Positions 53,089 through 61,423 of a DNA stretch of 61,776 nt are shown in pieces. The notes beneath the pieces are model-generated. The model was not told the origin of the DNA. It saw nothing but the letters and a program-made list of their open reading frames with translations, and did not search any database. Made by a program: the position numbers and the translations under genes. The stretch spans positions 1-61,776 of the forward strand of contig JAFGWC010000048.1 of the NCBI GenBank assembly GCA_016937695.1, given 5' to 3'. Within the stretch, counting starts at the first letter, position 1. Every line of letters starts with the position of its first letter. This DNA comes from Bacteroidales bacterium. Lineage in GTDB: Bacteria; Bacteroidota; Bacteroidia; Bacteroidales; NBLH01.

Positions 53089-55407
53089 ATGCATTTTTCA
53101 AAACTTATATCAATTCTATTAATTTCATTAATATACTTTTCAGATATTATTAATGCTCAAATTCCTATTGGAGCTTGGCGCGATCATTTAGCTTATTCAA
53201 ATACTACAAATGTTATAAAAGCAAATAATAAAATTTGGTGTTCAAGTCCTTATGCTTTATTTTATTTCGATAAAAATGATAATAGTATTGGCAAACTCTC
53301 AAAAGCAAATGGTTTATCCGATTTTGGAATAAGCTCAATCAATTATAATTCTGATAATGAAGCACTTGTCGTTGCTTACAATAATGCAAATATCGATATC
53401 ATTTATAATAATTCTATTAAAAACATTAATTATATAAAACAAGCTCAAATACAAGGAAATAAAAACATTTACAAAATTGTTTTTCAAAATAACATTGCAT
53501 ATTTGGCCTGTGGATTTGGAATTGTTGTTTTAGATATTGAAAACCTTGAAATAAAAGAAACTTACTACATTGGCAATAATGCCGCTGCAATTGAAGTTTA
53601 CGATATCTGTTTTGATGAAAATTACATTTATGCAGCTACAGAAGAAGGAATATATTTTGCAGATAAAAACAGCAATAATTTAATAGACTATAATTATTGG
53701 TCTAAAATAAGTTCAATTCCAAATCCTGACCAAAAATTTACTTCAATAATAAATTTCAACAATAATATTCTTGCAAATTATTATAATTCTACCGAAAATG
53801 CTTCATATATATACAAAAAAGAAGGCGAAAACTGGGTTTTATTTTACAATTCCGAAAATCTCATTAAAAAAATAAGTTATAATGACAATTATCTTTCAAT
53901 AACTGAAGACAGTAAAATAAGCATTTACAGTAACAATCTGATTATAAAAGAGATAATAAGCAATTATAATCTTTGTTGCTTTAAACCAAACGATTGTTAT
54001 ATTGATGAAAATTATAATATTTACATTGGCGATAGAGAAATTGGATTAGTAAAACGAGAATCAAATCTGGCTTTTCAGAGTTTTTATCCGAATGGACCTT
54101 TTGAAAACAGTGTTGTTGATATTTCTGAAGAAAATAATAATGTTTGGGTTGCTGCCGGCGGAAGAACTTCTTTTTGGGGAAATTTATACAAATATGCAGA
54201 AGCTTTTCATTTTGAGAATGAAACATGGCGCTCAAAAGTTCTTTGGGAGTCAAATGCCAGAGATTTTGTGAAAATATTAGTTAATTCACATAACAGTAGT
54301 CAGGTTTTTGCAGGCGCTTGGGGAACCGGAGTTTTTGAATTTATTAACGGTGATTTACAAAACGCTTATAATGAGCAAAATAGCAGTTTACAAAGCATTT
54401 TGCCCGGCGGCGAATTTATCAGAATTGGCGGATTAGCTATTGATGAAAATCAAAACTTGTGGGTAACAAATTCAGGAGTAAACTATCCAATTTCAGTAAA
54501 AACAGCAAATAACGAATGGCAAAGTTTAGAATATCCCGAAATTAGCGGACAAAGCGATGTTGGTGAAATTATTATTTGCAGCAATAATAACAAATGGGTG
54601 CAATTAGCACGTGGTGGAGGTTTATTTGCTTTTAACCACAACAATACACCTACTGATTATAGCGACGACGACCACAAAAAATTTAGCATTACTGATGAAA
54701 ACGGAATTATTATAACAAACGACGTATACTCTATTGCGGTAGATCAAGATGATGTTGTTTGGGTTGGAACAGATAAAGGTGTAATCACATATTTTAATGC
54801 ATCAAATGTTTTTGATGGAAATAATTTTTATGCCGACAGAATAAAACTTGTTGATAAAAATTACGACAGCATTGTTCAATATCTACTTGGAAATGAAAAG
54901 ATTACATCAATTGAAATTGATGGTGCAAATCGAAAATGGTTTGGAACTGAAAATTCCGGAGTTTTTTTAATGTCGGCAGATGGACAAAAAGAAATTTTTA
55001 ATTTCAATTCAGAAAACAGTCCGCTTTTTTCAAATAATATTACTGATATTAAAGTAAATAGTGTAACAGGAGAAGTTTTTTTCGGAACAGATTTAGGACT
55101 GATTTCATACAAAGGAACTGCAACAAAAGGCGATAATGCATACAAAAACGCATATATTTATCCAAATCCGGTTAGAGAAAACTACGAAGGTGAAATTACT
55201 ATTACAGGAATTGCAAAAAATGCAAACGTTAAAATAACAAATATCAGCGGAAAGCTTGTTTACGAAACTACAGCCTTTGGCGGACAAGCAATCTGGAATG
55301 GTCGCGATTTTTCAGGACAAAAAGTTTACACAGGCGTTTATTTAGTTTTTTGTACAGATAGCGAAGGAAAATATAAAAAAGTATTAAAATTGCTTATTAT
55401 AAACTAA
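53089..55407 (+). CDS. porZ: PorZ-like type IX secretion protein
   Basis: A 772-aa protein with a signal peptide (ending ADI..NAQ, about residue 24) and the PorZ start IPIGAWRDHLAYSNTT. Two beta-propeller-like regions follow, with repeats such as NNVWVAAGGRTSFWG and DDVVWVGTDKGVITYF. The C-terminal domain has the type A sorting pattern (YPNPVRENYEGEITI, GVYLVFC, KVLKLLI). PorZ works with PorU, PorV and PorQ in the attachment complex on the outer membrane. It lies 7 nt before recO. Confidence 0.85.
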   Translation: MHFSKLISILLISLIYFSDIINAQIPIGAWRDHLAYSNTTNVIKANNKIWCSSPYALFYFDKNDNSIGKLSKANGLSDFGISSINYNSDNEALVVAYNNANIDIIYNNSIKNINYIKQAQIQGNKNIYKIVFQNNIAYLACGFGIVVLDIENLEIKETYYIGNNAAAIEVYDICFDENYIYAATEEGIYFADKNSNNLIDYNYWSKISSIPNPDQKFTSIINFNNNILANYYNSTENASYIYKKEGENWVLFYNSENLIKKISYNDNYLSITEDSKISIYSNNLIIKEIISNYNLCCFKPNDCYIDENYNIYIGDREIGLVKRESNLAFQSFYPNGPFENSVVDISEENNNVWVAAGGRTSFWGNLYKYAEAFHFENETWRSKVLWESNARDFVKILVNSHNSSQVFAGAWGTGVFEFINGDLQNAYNEQNSSLQSILPGGEFIRIGGLAIDENQNLWVTNSGVNYPISVKTANNEWQSLEYPEISGQSDVGEIIICSNNNKWVQLARGGGLFAFNHNNTPTDYSDDDHKKFSITDENGIIITNDVYSIAVDQDDVVWVGTDKGVITYFNASNVFDGNNFYADRIKLVDKNYDSIVQYLLGNEKITSIEIDGANRKWFGTENSGVFLMSADGQKEIFNFNSENSPLFSNNITDIKVNSVTGEVFFGTDLGLISYKGTATKGDNAYKNAYIYPNPVRENYEGEITITGIAKNANVKITNISGKLVYETTAFGGQAIWNGRDFSGQKVYTGVYLVFCTDSEGKYKKVLKLLIIN

Positions 55408-55414
55408 TAAGAAA

Positions 55415-56140
55415 ATGCTTGAACAAACAAGAGGCATATTTCTAAAACAAACTAAATATTCTGACAGTCAGATTATTGCAGAAATATTTACCGAAAAATT
55501 TGGGAAACAAGCTTTTATTTTAAGGCATTCGTCAAAAAGCAAAACTTTACCAAAAAAAAATATTTTACAACCACTTTTCTTATTAGACTTACAAGTCTAT
55601 TACAAGCAAAACCGAGAAATTCAAAGGATAAAAGAAATCAGCCACAATCCGGTTTTGTCTGATTTGCCTTTTAACATAAGCAAAACTTCTATTGCTATAT
55701 TTGTGTCAGAAATTTTATATAAAGTAATTAAAGAAGAAGAAGAAAATAGCCATTTATTTGAGTTTTTGTACAATTCTATACTTTTACTCGATAATATTGA
55801 AAGCGGAATTGGTAATTATCACATAATTTTCTTATACGAACTTTGTAAATTTTTAGGATTTTATCCTAAAAATAATTTTAGCAGCGAAAAAAAATTTTTC
55901 AATCTTATTGAAGGAAAATTTTACAGTATACAAGCCGATTCAAGATATTATTTAGATGAAGAAACAAGCAAATTAATTAGCATTTTGCATTCTAAAGGAT
56001 TTTCGAATATAGAAAATTTCAGCTTTTCTAAAAATCAAAAAAAAACAATTTTAGATTCAATTATAGAATATTACAAATTTCACATCCCAAACATGGGAAA
56101 AATTAAATCTTTAGAAATTTTGCAGGAAATTTTTTCGTGA
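55415..56140 (+). CDS. recO: DNA repair protein RecO
   Basis: A 241-aa protein with the N-terminal OB-fold stretch TRGIFLKQTKYSDSQIIAEIF and the helical RecO C-terminal domain (FLYELCKFLGFYP). It loads RecA onto SSB-coated DNA together with RecR. The zinc-binding cysteines of some RecO proteins are not obvious here. It follows porZ by 7 nt and ends 2 nt from the convergent exosortase gene. Confidence 0.9.
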   Translation: MLEQTRGIFLKQTKYSDSQIIAEIFTEKFGKQAFILRHSSKSKTLPKKNILQPLFLLDLQVYYKQNREIQRIKEISHNPVLSDLPFNISKTSIAIFVSEILYKVIKEEEENSHLFEFLYNSILLLDNIESGIGNYHIIFLYELCKFLGFYPKNNFSSEKKFFNLIEGKFYSIQADSRYYLDEETSKLISILHSKGFSNIENFSFSKNQKKTILDSIIEYYKFHIPNMGKIKSLEILQEIFS

Positions 56141-56142
56141 AA

Positions 56143-56694
56143 TTAATTGGAATTTTTAACAGCTCTAACATTTATCTTTTGTATCCACCAAAACCACAAT
56201 AAAAATATAACAGTATAAACAGCGTATTTAAAAATTAAATGATGATTAATATCCATATGCTCCGGACAACAAAGAGCAATATATGCTAAACCGCAGATTC
56301 TAAGAACATTAACAAAATTTATAATTAATAATCCTAAAGGAATAAACCATAATTTCTTTTTTATTATTCCTGGATATGCAATTACAAACCCGGCAAATAA
56401 ACCCATTACATTTCTTCCAAGGCATCCTCTATCTAAATAAACACCGCCTGTTCCAACAATTCTTATTGTTTTACCAAACATTTCAGTTTCAAAACCAAAT
56501 ACATTCAACAATAATTCGCTAAAATAAAGAAGATAATATGTTAATTGCCCTGTAGATTTTTCATAAATATTATTCACAAAACCAGAATATCTAAAAAACT
56601 TGTAAAAAATAAACCATAATAAAAAAAGAAACACGCCATTTACTATAAATTTAACTATAGGATGAAATGCTTTATACTTTTCTATAAGAATCAT
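56143..56694 (-). CDS. Exosortase family protein (XrtX-like)
   Basis: A 183-aa integral membrane protein with about six helices and the exosortase catalytic residues: Cys91 in LDRGCLGRNVMG, Arg132 in NVLRICGLAYI and His151/152 in INHHLIFKY. It is a bare exosortase domain without the longer N-terminus of EpsH types. It should recognise a C-terminal sorting tail and process it. The gene immediately upstream in the operon encodes just such a tail (26 nt gap). Confidence 0.88.
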   Translation of the reverse strand: MILIEKYKAFHPIVKFIVNGVFLFLLWFIFYKFFRYSGFVNNIYEKSTGQLTYYLLYFSELLLNVFGFETEMFGKTIRIVGTGGVYLDRGCLGRNVMGLFAGFVIAYPGIIKKKLWFIPLGLLIINFVNVLRICGLAYIALCCPEHMDINHHLIFKYAVYTVIFLLWFWWIQKINVRAVKNSN

Positions 56695-56720
56695 TAAAAA
56701 AATTTACTGAGTTTTTTAAT

Positions 56721-56921
56721 TTATTTTTCCGGATTTTCTCTTTGAGAATAAAGCTTTTTAGCAGCATATCCTATTCCAGCAGCAAGCAAAAATCCTAATC
56801 CTCCATCAATAGGAATATCAGTAGGACCAGGTGGTGGTGGTTGTGCTATAGCCGTTTGAACAAATACAGGAGTAATTATAAACAGTATTAAAAAAATTAA
56901 AATTGTTAAAGCTTTGTTCAT
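56721..56921 (-). CDS. Very small PID-CTERM-like protein, probable exosortase substrate
   Basis: A 66-aa protein from ATG 56921. A signal peptide (residues ~1-27, ending TAIAQ) is followed by PPPPGPTDIPIDGG, then a hydrophobic helix (LGFLLAAGIGYAA, ~42-54) and a basic tail (KKLYSQRENPEK). That is a complete sorting tail (PID motif, helix, Arg/Lys) with almost no mature domain. A longer in-frame reading from TTG 57005 is unlikely, since a consensus promoter lies between. The next gene is the exosortase. Confidence 0.8.
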   Translation of the reverse strand: MNKALTILIFLILFIITPVFVQTAIAQPPPPGPTDIPIDGGLGFLLAAGIGYAAKKLYSQRENPEK

Positions 56922-56965
56922 ATAAACATTATTTTTTATTAAAGTAAAAATGTTTCCATCAATCT

Positions 56966-56998
56966 CAAAATTATCTTTACTTATATACATATTTTCAA
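56966..56998 (-). promoter_or_regulatory. Promoter of the PID-CTERM / exosortase operon
   Basis: On the minus strand TTG (56996-56998) and TAATTTTG (56966-56973) are spaced by 22 nt, matching the Bacteroidota consensus. The predicted leader before ATG 56921 is about 40 nt, which supports that start. Confidence 0.6.
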
Positions 56999-57401
56999 TT
57001 TGCAAATTTTATACCCTAAATTAATAAAATAGAATAATCTCTTAATATCTTATACGTAAAATTCTCTATTTTGTTTCATGTAATATATTTAATTTGCAGA
57101 CTAATGTTTGTGTTTAGAGGTTGCTTTATATTTAAATCTAGAACGACAAAGAAATAATAAAAGTGTGCTTTTTTTGTTTTTTTTTTATCAATAACCAAAT
57201 TTCTTTGACTAAAACCAGATTTATATATTTTAATCGCCATAAAATTTTGCCAAAAGTAATAAAAACGATTTAAAAAAGAAATTTTGTAACTTTTTTATAT
57301 GCCCAAACGACATACAATAAACAAAAATTTAATTTTAATTAACATTTTATTAATAGTCAATATTATATAATTGAAAATTATTGACACAAAAATAATAAAC
57401 T
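56999..57401. other. About 400-nt intergenic region between divergent genes
   Basis: AT-rich DNA between the PID-CTERM gene and the coiled-coil barrel gene. No ORF, tRNA or strong hairpin was seen. A run of T at 57172-57188 is the only simple-sequence feature noted. Confidence 0.5.
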
Positions 57402-60262: not shown

Positions 60263-61423
60263 ATGATTTTAAGAACATTAAAAAATAAATGGAAAGTATT
60301 ATTTGTGATTTTTGCAATTGTAATTTCAGTTGGATTTTTATGGTACTCAAACGAGCTTGTTACAAATATATCAATTGAAGAACATAAAAAAATTGAACTT
60401 TGGGCAGAAACAACAAAAGAGCTTCAAGAAATTCCATTAACAGGCGAAGTTCCACTTTTCATGTTTAAAATTTTACAAGAAAATAAAACAATTCCAAGGA
60501 TTTTACTCGATAATTCAGGAAAAATTATTAACTCTATGAATCTTGATTCTTCAAAATCAAATAACGAAAATTATTTGAGAAATGAATTGGAAATAATGAA
60601 ATCGCAACACAAACCAATAGTTATTGTTGTTGATAACATCAAAAATTATATTTATTACAAAGATTCTGATTTATTAAGCAAACTTAATTATTATCCTTAT
60701 TTACAGTTCTTTATAATTGGATTATTTTTAATTGTAGTGTTTTTTGCTGTTACAATTTCACAAAATATTGAACAAAATAAATTATGGGTTGGCATGTCGA
60801 AAGAAACTGCACATCAATTAGGAACGCCAATTTCATCTTTACTTGCCTGGATTGAACTTACAAAATCGAAAAAAGAAAAAGACCCATATGTTTTAGAACT
60901 TGAAAAAGATGTTCAGCGCCTTGAAAAAATAACAGAACGATTTTCCAGAATTGGCTCTAAACCGGTTCTTACAGAAGCAAATATTCCAATTGTTGTAAAT
61001 AATGCATTAGATTATTTAAGAACAAGAACATCATCAAGAGTAATTTTTGTTCAAAATTTTTCAATTTCAGATGAAATTATAGCACCTATAAACATTGCCC
61101 TTTTCGAATGGGTTATCGAAAATTTGTGGAAAAATGCTTTAGATGCTATGAATAATTTAGGTGAAATTAAGATAGGAATTAAACAAACCGGACATTATGC
61201 TTTTATTGATGTTACAGATACCGGAAAAGGTATTCCAAAATCGAAATTTAAAACTGTTTTTAAACCCGGTTTTACAACAAAAATACGTGGTTGGGGATTA
61301 GGTTTATCGCTTGCCAAAAGAATAATTGAAACATACCATAAAGGAAAAATATACGTCCGCCATTCAGAAATTGACAGAGGAGCTACTTTTAGAATTGTAT
61401 TAAAAAAACAACTTGAAAAATAA
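60263..61423 (+). CDS. Sensor histidine kinase
   Basis: A 386-aa protein. Membrane helices at ~12-30 and ~147-167 enclose a periplasmic domain of about 115 residues. The DHp region has the phosphoacceptor His184 in SKETAHQLGTPISSLL. The ATPase domain has the N box (IENLWKNALDAMN), G1 (DVTDTGKGIP) and G2 (GWGLGLSLAKRII). It starts 4 nt after the RemB-like gene. No response regulator is adjacent. Confidence 0.93.
   Translation: MILRTLKNKWKVLFVIFAIVISVGFLWYSNELVTNISIEEHKKIELWAETTKELQEIPLTGEVPLFMFKILQENKTIPRILLDNSGKIINSMNLDSSKSNNENYLRNELEIMKSQHKPIVIVVDNIKNYIYYKDSDLLSKLNYYPYLQFFIIGLFLIVVFFAVTISQNIEQNKLWVGMSKETAHQLGTPISSLLAWIELTKSKKEKDPYVLELEKDVQRLEKITERFSRIGSKPVLTEANIPIVVNNALDYLRTRTSSRVIFVQNFSISDEIIAPINIALFEWVIENLWKNALDAMNNLGEIKIGIKQTGHYAFIDVTDTGKGIPKSKFKTVFKPGFTTKIRGWGLGLSLAKRIIETYHKGKIYVRHSEIDRGATFRIVLKKQLEK

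Follow-up and report, generated by a model that had tools for sequence, protein, structure and literature searches.

An exosortase with a mini-protein partner in a Bacteroidales genome, and a possible link of such pairs to type IX surface attachment

An exosortase and a mini-protein with almost no cargo

The window (the whole stretch of 61,776 nucleotides of Bacteroidales DNA that was analysed) carries on its reverse strand a gene for a 66-aa protein and, downstream across a gap of 26 bp between the two open reading frames, a gene for an exosortase (Table 1). The enzyme scored above the cut-offs of the exosortase/archaeosortase superfamily model TIGR04178 (47.9 bits, cut-off 23) and of PF09721 (34.3 bits, cut-off 25.7). 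The best specific model was XrtX (NF046081), at 126.7 bits below its cut-off of 170; scores were likewise below the cut-offs of XrtF (TIGR04128, 70.9 bits, cut-off 90) and XrtY (82.1 bits), and the enzyme is therefore named XrtX-like only. In an alignment of 25 exosortase relatives C91 and R132 were invariant and H151 was present in at least 90%; we take these three residues to be the exosortase catalytic triad. The AlphaFold model was confident (mean pLDDT 90.6). No solved structure matched it by fold at E≤0.001, a PDB search with the sequence gave nothing significant (best E 0.46), and viral contigs searched with the window exosortase yielded no relative.

Table 1. Coordinates of the exosortase pair and of PorZ in the window.
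Feature	Position	Strand	Remarks
PorZ (T9SS attachment complex), convergent neighbour past recO	53089..55407	+	NF052228 642 bits; context, outside the pair
Exosortase, XrtX-like group, 183 aa	56143..56694	-	Putative catalytic C91, R132, H151
PID-CTERM mini-protein, 66 aa, predicted sole substrate	56721..56921 (stop codon included)	-	NF046080 match
Signal peptide, residues 1-26 (MNK...AIA)	56844..56921	-	By eye; family pattern A-x-A/Q (slash, cleavage site)
Mature cargo QPPPPGPTD, 9 residues before IPID	56817..56843	-	
Sorting tail, residues 36-66: IPIDGG motif, small-residue-rich helix, basic end	56724..56816	-	

The small protein matched the PID-CTERM model NF046080 with 43.8 bits (cut-off 26) over residues 37–58. 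In a scan of the whole genome this match had an E value of 9.5e-11 and is therefore not a chance one, and on the same value a chance pairing of the two genes was rejected. Thus the exosortase and sorting-tail protein that the initial annotation had described from the sequence are both real, each above the cut-offs of its family models (TIGR04178 and PF09721, NF046080). The protein reads, in order, as a signal peptide, QPPPPGPTD, IPIDGG, a helix and a basic tail; its N-terminus was judged by eye, as a hydrophobic stretch with an A-x-A/Q site, the rule script described below having been applied to the relatives only. Cleavage there would leave 9 residues before IPID, or 13 through its D, which agrees with the earlier view that almost no cargo remains. 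At E≤1 PID_CTERM was the only family that matched, with no T9SS (type IX secretion system) sorting domain of type A, B or C and no PEP-CTERM match; the mini-protein can therefore be a partner of T9SS at most, and no cargo of it.

We place the start of the small gene at the ATG at the 56921 end, although an in-frame TTG lies farther upstream at 57005; if so, the end first given for the gene, 56998, was about 80 bp too far. A genome of the same genus (G455) has the same pair, and the likeness of the small gene runs from this ATG onward. There the cargo reads QPPPPPPVD instead of QPPPPGPTD, and over 58 codons (28 the same, 13 with silent differences, 17 with residue changes) dN was 0.19 against a dS of 0.71, so that the small frame, whose conservation had been in question, is conserved. 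The exosortase was found in two of the seven genomes of the genus, the window's own and G455, and three of the five negative ones are less than 90% complete.

The window's own genome (3.95 Mb, 99.6% complete) had one exosortase match and a single PID tail even at E≤10, a loose level at which NF046080 also matches 9 of 14 control genomes, none of them above cut-off. Larger proteins bearing the tail, which the annotation had named as a finding that would speak against it, were thus rejected for this genome. The exosortase has no detectable partner but this mini-protein, which carries next to no cargo, as befits the earlier proposal of something other than a typical surface protein.

The pair is directly flanked by recO, which is convergent and lies past the exosortase, and by a gene for an outer membrane barrel protein; with 52–61.8 kb of the window inspected, no polysaccharide gene adjoins it. 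The porZ-recO neighbours (53089–56140) also occur in G455, G477 and a genome inferred to be Flavobacterium johnsoniae. Since recO and porZ adjoin in this last genome with the exosortase far away, closeness to porZ is weak evidence, and we rejected it as proof of a link to T9SS. A sensor histidine kinase gene (60263–61423), 3.3 kb from the small gene, shows no sign of belonging to the pair.

Tiny cargo is the rule in the PID-CTERM family

PID tails above cut-off were present in 59 of the 395 genomes of a phylum sample and in none of the 14 control genomes. We examined 146 of the 150 PID rows listed for this sample, from 56 genomes, the window itself and contig ends being among the rows left out. 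A rule script, which prefers A/Q sites, placed a signal-peptide site in 134 of the 146 proteins (52 genomes). Between the cleavage site and the PID motif these 134 have a median of 13 residues (quartiles 11 and 19, longest 83). Residue +1 was Gln in 116 of them, followed by Pro in 73, a count that leans to Q through the preference of the script. Tiny cargo is thus the rule for the PID-CTERM family and not a peculiarity of the window locus.

The commonest class, with 47 proteins, has an 11-residue peptide of consensus QPGLPxxPxQA. Mean identity within it was 72% for the mature peptide across 21 genomes, against 25% at the signal peptide end, and 84% over the start of the tail (its first 20 residues). 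The mature peptide is therefore conserved by itself and looks like a product, not a leftover. Near-identical mature peptides occur in different genera, and a genome may hold up to nine PID matches (among the matches listed).

One long frame stood out among the 150 listed rows, a 995-aa frame in G166 (L162) that ends in a PID-like tail with a helix. It is perhaps a substrate of another exosortase; as one row of 150, it was rejected as a typical large substrate.

These figures bear on what becomes of the mini-protein. If it stayed uncut in the inner membrane, as a single-helix subunit or regulator of either the exosortase or the T9SS motor, this would account for the strong conservation of its helix (the 84% of the 11-residue class), the small residues suited to helix packing and the single copy in the window genome. 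A subunit or regulator agrees poorly with up to nine copies per genome (among the matches listed), which mostly follow different cargo genes, with the full sorting-signal build and with the catalytic residues kept in the partner enzyme, and we regard it as quite unlikely. Release of the peptide as a signal, or pheromone, has in its favour that the peptide is short and proline-rich with a protected N-terminus, and that the histidine kinase gene lies 3.3 kb away, though not adjoining; near-identical peptides across genera and the many copies in a genome are more what one would expect of a structural component than of a private signal, the direct neighbours of the pair are recO and the barrel gene, and such a role seems extremely improbable.

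Enzyme and predicted substrate occur together

Co-occurrence is given here as raw counts in which the kinship of the genomes is ignored. In the phylum sample an XrtX-type enzyme was present in all 57 PID genomes listed (of the 59), and PID in 43 of the 45 genomes with XrtX above cut-off. The order sample of 198 genomes, where all 81 matching genomes were below the XrtX cut-off of 170, gave an XrtX-type match in 37 of 42 PID genomes. Its five exceptions (G407, G463, G469, G526 and G571) have PID above cut-off and no XrtX-type match at E≤1e-5; three are less than 93% complete and two are 97–99% complete, and either assembly gaps or another enzyme would account for them.

The pair was also sought as such in other Bacteroidota, as the initial annotation had proposed, and was found there: PID lay directly upstream of XrtX on the same strand at 15 of the 45 XrtX sites inspected in the order (four of these adjacencies resting on a PID match below cut-off) and at 6 of the 22 inspected in the phylum sample, the window included in both counts. 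Behind XrtX in G045 (L230:912-1451) and G273 (L007:480-938) there is a membrane protein that matches NF046082 below cut-off.

Dispersed PID genes mostly lie behind T9SS cargo genes

PID genes away from an exosortase sit behind genes of large secreted proteins. In the phylum sample 126 of the 146 PID genes had an upstream neighbour on the same strand (the other 20 had one on the opposite strand, 17, or none found, 3), and of the 124 distinct neighbours left after two duplicates were dropped, 109 contained the T9SS type A sorting domain (TIGR04183, E≤0.01). Two more were T9SS outer membrane proteins of the PorV family, and further ones were fumarase, methionine adenosyltransferase, isoprenyl diphosphate synthase and XrtX itself. 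The mini-genes behind a PorV-family gene are in G388 (L198) and G328 (L231), where the C-terminal 100 residues by themselves score above the PorV_fam cut-off. In the order sample, for which 69 of 88 PID rows from 36 genomes were examined (the window, contig ends and others being left out), TIGR04183 was found in 46 of 57 same-strand upstream neighbours.

Downstream the picture differs. With a home-made model built from the upstream set, which recovers 116 of the 126 upstream neighbours, a sorting domain was detected in only 10 of 131 downstream neighbours. The eight genomes listed have 35–112 T9SS sorting domains each, the window's own 35, so that by our estimate about one gene in 35–110 carries one, far below the rate upstream of PID genes. 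That PID genes away from the exosortase are mostly directly downstream of T9SS cargo genes is new here.

In two genomes, G115 (L186) and G033 (L229), all three elements are consecutive on one strand, in the order T9SS cargo, PID, exosortase. The ends of these cargos score 34.6 and 38.6 bits, respectively, with TIGR04183 (cut-off 23), and that of G033 scores 22.4 with the Pfam sorting model, below its cut-off of 27. The nine cargos that we scanned were varied, with ice-binding, kelch, FG-GAP, lamin-tail, Ig-like and laminin-G-like domains, and some had the sorting domain alone.

SprA was present in every one of the 57 listed PID genomes and of the 115 XrtX genomes, compared with 303 of the 395 genomes as a whole. 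This comparison depends in part on phylogeny, since a single family (f19) contributes 14 of the 20 listed genomes that lack SprA. Only a small minority of T9SS cargo genes lie next to a PID gene. In multi-copy genomes at most nine PID genes (among the matches listed) face 61–112 sorting domains, about 12% at most, and the lone PID gene of the window genome does not adjoin a cargo gene.

Across the phylum, this link of the relatives of the pair to T9SS suggests that the trimmed peptide helps to fix secreted proteins to the cell surface. The link is the strongest clue to the function of the pair, and it lies beyond the stretch covered by the initial annotation, which had the minimal pair right and missed the T9SS link, the tiny cargo of the whole family and the names that NCBIfam already gives it.

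The XrtF system of Flavobacterium johnsoniae

Published phenotypes concern XrtF, not XrtX. In Flavobacterium genomes XrtX-family matches reach about 100 bits (among the matches listed), and there is one mini-gene of the same build, often beside ribE. The list obtained at a loose threshold holds chance matches (22 of 23 genomes at E≤1, only 4 above cut-off), some of them plainly not mini-substrates by eye, for example that in G206 and one in G154. A profile of 18 Flavobacterium mini-proteins found a match in 115 of the 368 genomes of the genus (E≤0.001), and the mini-gene is therefore patchy, or too variable for one profile. The tail profiles of the PID and Flavobacterium mini-proteins align (hhalign probability 95.3, E 2.1e-8), in a comparison that had no control and in which helices align easily.

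The exosortase of the inferred F. johnsoniae genome (G732) is XrtF, with 241 bits against a cut-off of 90. Its mini-gene (710501–710743; L350:501-743) encodes 80 aa, lies beside ribE and away from the exosortase, and the protein matched no NCBIfam family at E≤1. In this genome porZ is 2283 bp long and the gene behind xrtF 447 bp, the lengths of the complementation fragments given for Fjoh_0707 and Fjoh_1449 in the accessible parts of PMC10936215. In the same source Fjoh_0651 is given as hypothetical and has no COG; the fragment used to complement it measured 434 bp, promoter included. Fjoh_0651 stands 56 tags before Fjoh_0707 (porZ), and between the mini-gene and porZ we counted 55 ORFs of at least 100 aa (56 at 80 aa, 60 at 60 aa). 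The mini-gene thus sits where the tag count expects Fjoh_0651, and by eye it is the fitting ORF near that place among those of at least 60 aa. From position and size we infer that Fjoh_0651 is the XrtF mini-substrate; a literature search found no paper naming the locus tags that adjoin it.

Table 2 of that study (PMC10936215, as far as accessible) has identical rows for deletions of Fjoh_0651, xrtF, Fjoh_1449, porU, porZ and Fjoh_0334. In all of them sand colonisation is less, biofilm much less and zorbs abolished, with B. cereus expansion at the wild-type level; sprA and porV deletions differ from this row in the B. cereus column. These phenotypes are coarse. The rows group the exosortase system with the attachment steps PorU and PorZ. 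In the passages seen and in the discussion the authors do not draw a link between XrtF and T9SS attachment, and they leave exosortase substrates to future work.

The common row also bears on two other explanations. The processed peptide may be a small surface lipopeptide or glycopeptide in its own right, merely co-regulated with T9SS cargo. It is conserved by itself, and gene order points to co-expression, not contact; a phenotype row equal to those of porU and porZ (PMC10936215, accessible parts) and SprA in all 115 XrtX genomes argue the other way, and we find such a peptide very unlikely. Alternatively, exosortase and mini-protein may serve the assembly of surface polysaccharide or LPS, T9SS attachment failing secondarily where PorU needs that LPS as its acceptor. 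Exosortases mostly occur with exopolysaccharide gene clusters, and Fjoh_0334 in the common row is a surface polysaccharide cluster gene for a DegT/DnrJ/EryC1/StrS family aminotransferase, so that surface polysaccharide could be the common cause (PMC10936215, same parts). A role in polysaccharide assembly leaves unexplained why dispersed PID genes stand directly behind T9SS cargo genes, and the window pair, between recO and the barrel gene, has no polysaccharide gene directly beside it (52–61.8 kb of the window); we judge it unlikely.

A possible route from exosortase to surface attachment

The reading that we prefer, and lean towards as somewhat probable, is that the exosortase makes a conjugated peptide which is used in T9SS surface attachment, perhaps as an acceptor for PorU. 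To judge from the sequence, the mini-protein would cross the inner membrane and be cut by signal peptidase to leave QPPPPGPTD-IPID-helix-basic tail. By family analogy, the exosortase (C91, R132, H151) would then cut near IPID and transfer the resulting C-terminus to a lipid or glycan of the envelope. Gene neighbourhood, co-occurrence and the published F. johnsoniae phenotype common to both systems point to a third step, in which this peptide conjugate would serve T9SS surface attachment. Processing, transfer and a role in attachment, taken jointly, seem to us on balance credible.

A fourth step is more tentative. The conjugate may be the acceptor itself, PorU joining its free N-terminus to the C-terminus of the cleaved T9SS cargo. 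A linker of peptide and lipid, or of peptide and glycan, would then hold the cargo, much as the seryl-sugar of A-LPS does in Porphyromonas gingivalis; we rate this use of the conjugate as possible, though not probable. A genetically encoded peptide, tethered through its C-terminus, would be a natural variation on the seryl-sugar amine as acceptor. One objection is that an N-terminal Gln can form pyroglutamate by cyclisation and would then be blocked as an acceptor. As described in the accessible parts of PMC10202324, PorU can take short peptides as acceptors. The full sequence of two sortases, in which an XrtX/XrtF-type enzyme makes a gene-encoded peptide conjugate and PorU joins cargo to the N-terminus of the peptide, is a conjecture that we hold a shade more doubtfully still. 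If true, many Bacteroidota would fix T9SS proteins by a peptide linker that replaces, or adds to, the amino-acid-bearing sugar of P. gingivalis, and a cargo gene accompanied by a PID gene would come with a linker supply of its own. Among the roles first guessed at for the mini-protein, that of an anchor or acceptor thus draws the most support, and those of peptide signal and enzyme regulator have the low probabilities given above.

Literature searches for PID-CTERM returned no paper, and no biochemistry of a PID protein or of its cleavage; those combining exosortase with T9SS, Flavobacterium or small protein, with bioRxiv and most subscription journals outside their scope, gave no title announcing a link. 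A kindred idea comes from the other side: PMC7468200, in its accessible parts, raises the speculation that an amino-acid-modified sugar for the exosortase system may be the product of VimA-related proteins in bacteria that have an exosortase. The portions available of PMC12618676 and PMC8545088 give background on T9SS attachment and have nothing on exosortases. Both exosortase substrates in Bacteroidota and T9SS surface fixation outside P. gingivalis are poorly known; the link drawn here names a likely XrtF substrate and predicts that exosortase and T9SS attachment form one pathway.

Comparison with known systems

The pair belongs to families already catalogued in NCBIfam (XrtX-like and PID-CTERM), and its tail already has a name. 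XrtX/PID-CTERM (NF046081, NF046080) has the same tail family and is the nearest enzyme family, from which the locus differs in that its enzyme falls below the XrtX cut-off and has recO past it instead of the XrtX-associated membrane protein NF046082. The XrtF system of Flavobacterium (TIGR04128, TIGR04127) likewise pairs, in a genome that has T9SS, an exosortase and a mini-protein made of a signal peptide, a proline-rich spacer, a P-I-D/N motif, a helix and a KK end; in F. johnsoniae the mini-gene lies away from the enzyme, whereas that of the window is next to its exosortase.

EpsH/PEP-CTERM systems have a C-terminal motif, a helix and a basic tail, and an enzyme with conserved Cys, Arg and His, as does the window pair. 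Unlike them, the window has one mini-substrate and not many substrates with cargo domains, and a link to T9SS in place of an exopolysaccharide cluster (52–61.8 kb of the window). Finally, in the PorU/PorZ system of P. gingivalis cargo is linked by a transpeptidase to an acceptor that carries an amine, the seryl group on a sugar of A-LPS (PMC10202324, accessible parts), whereas here, on our hypothesis, an exosortase would make the acceptor, a peptide encoded by a gene.
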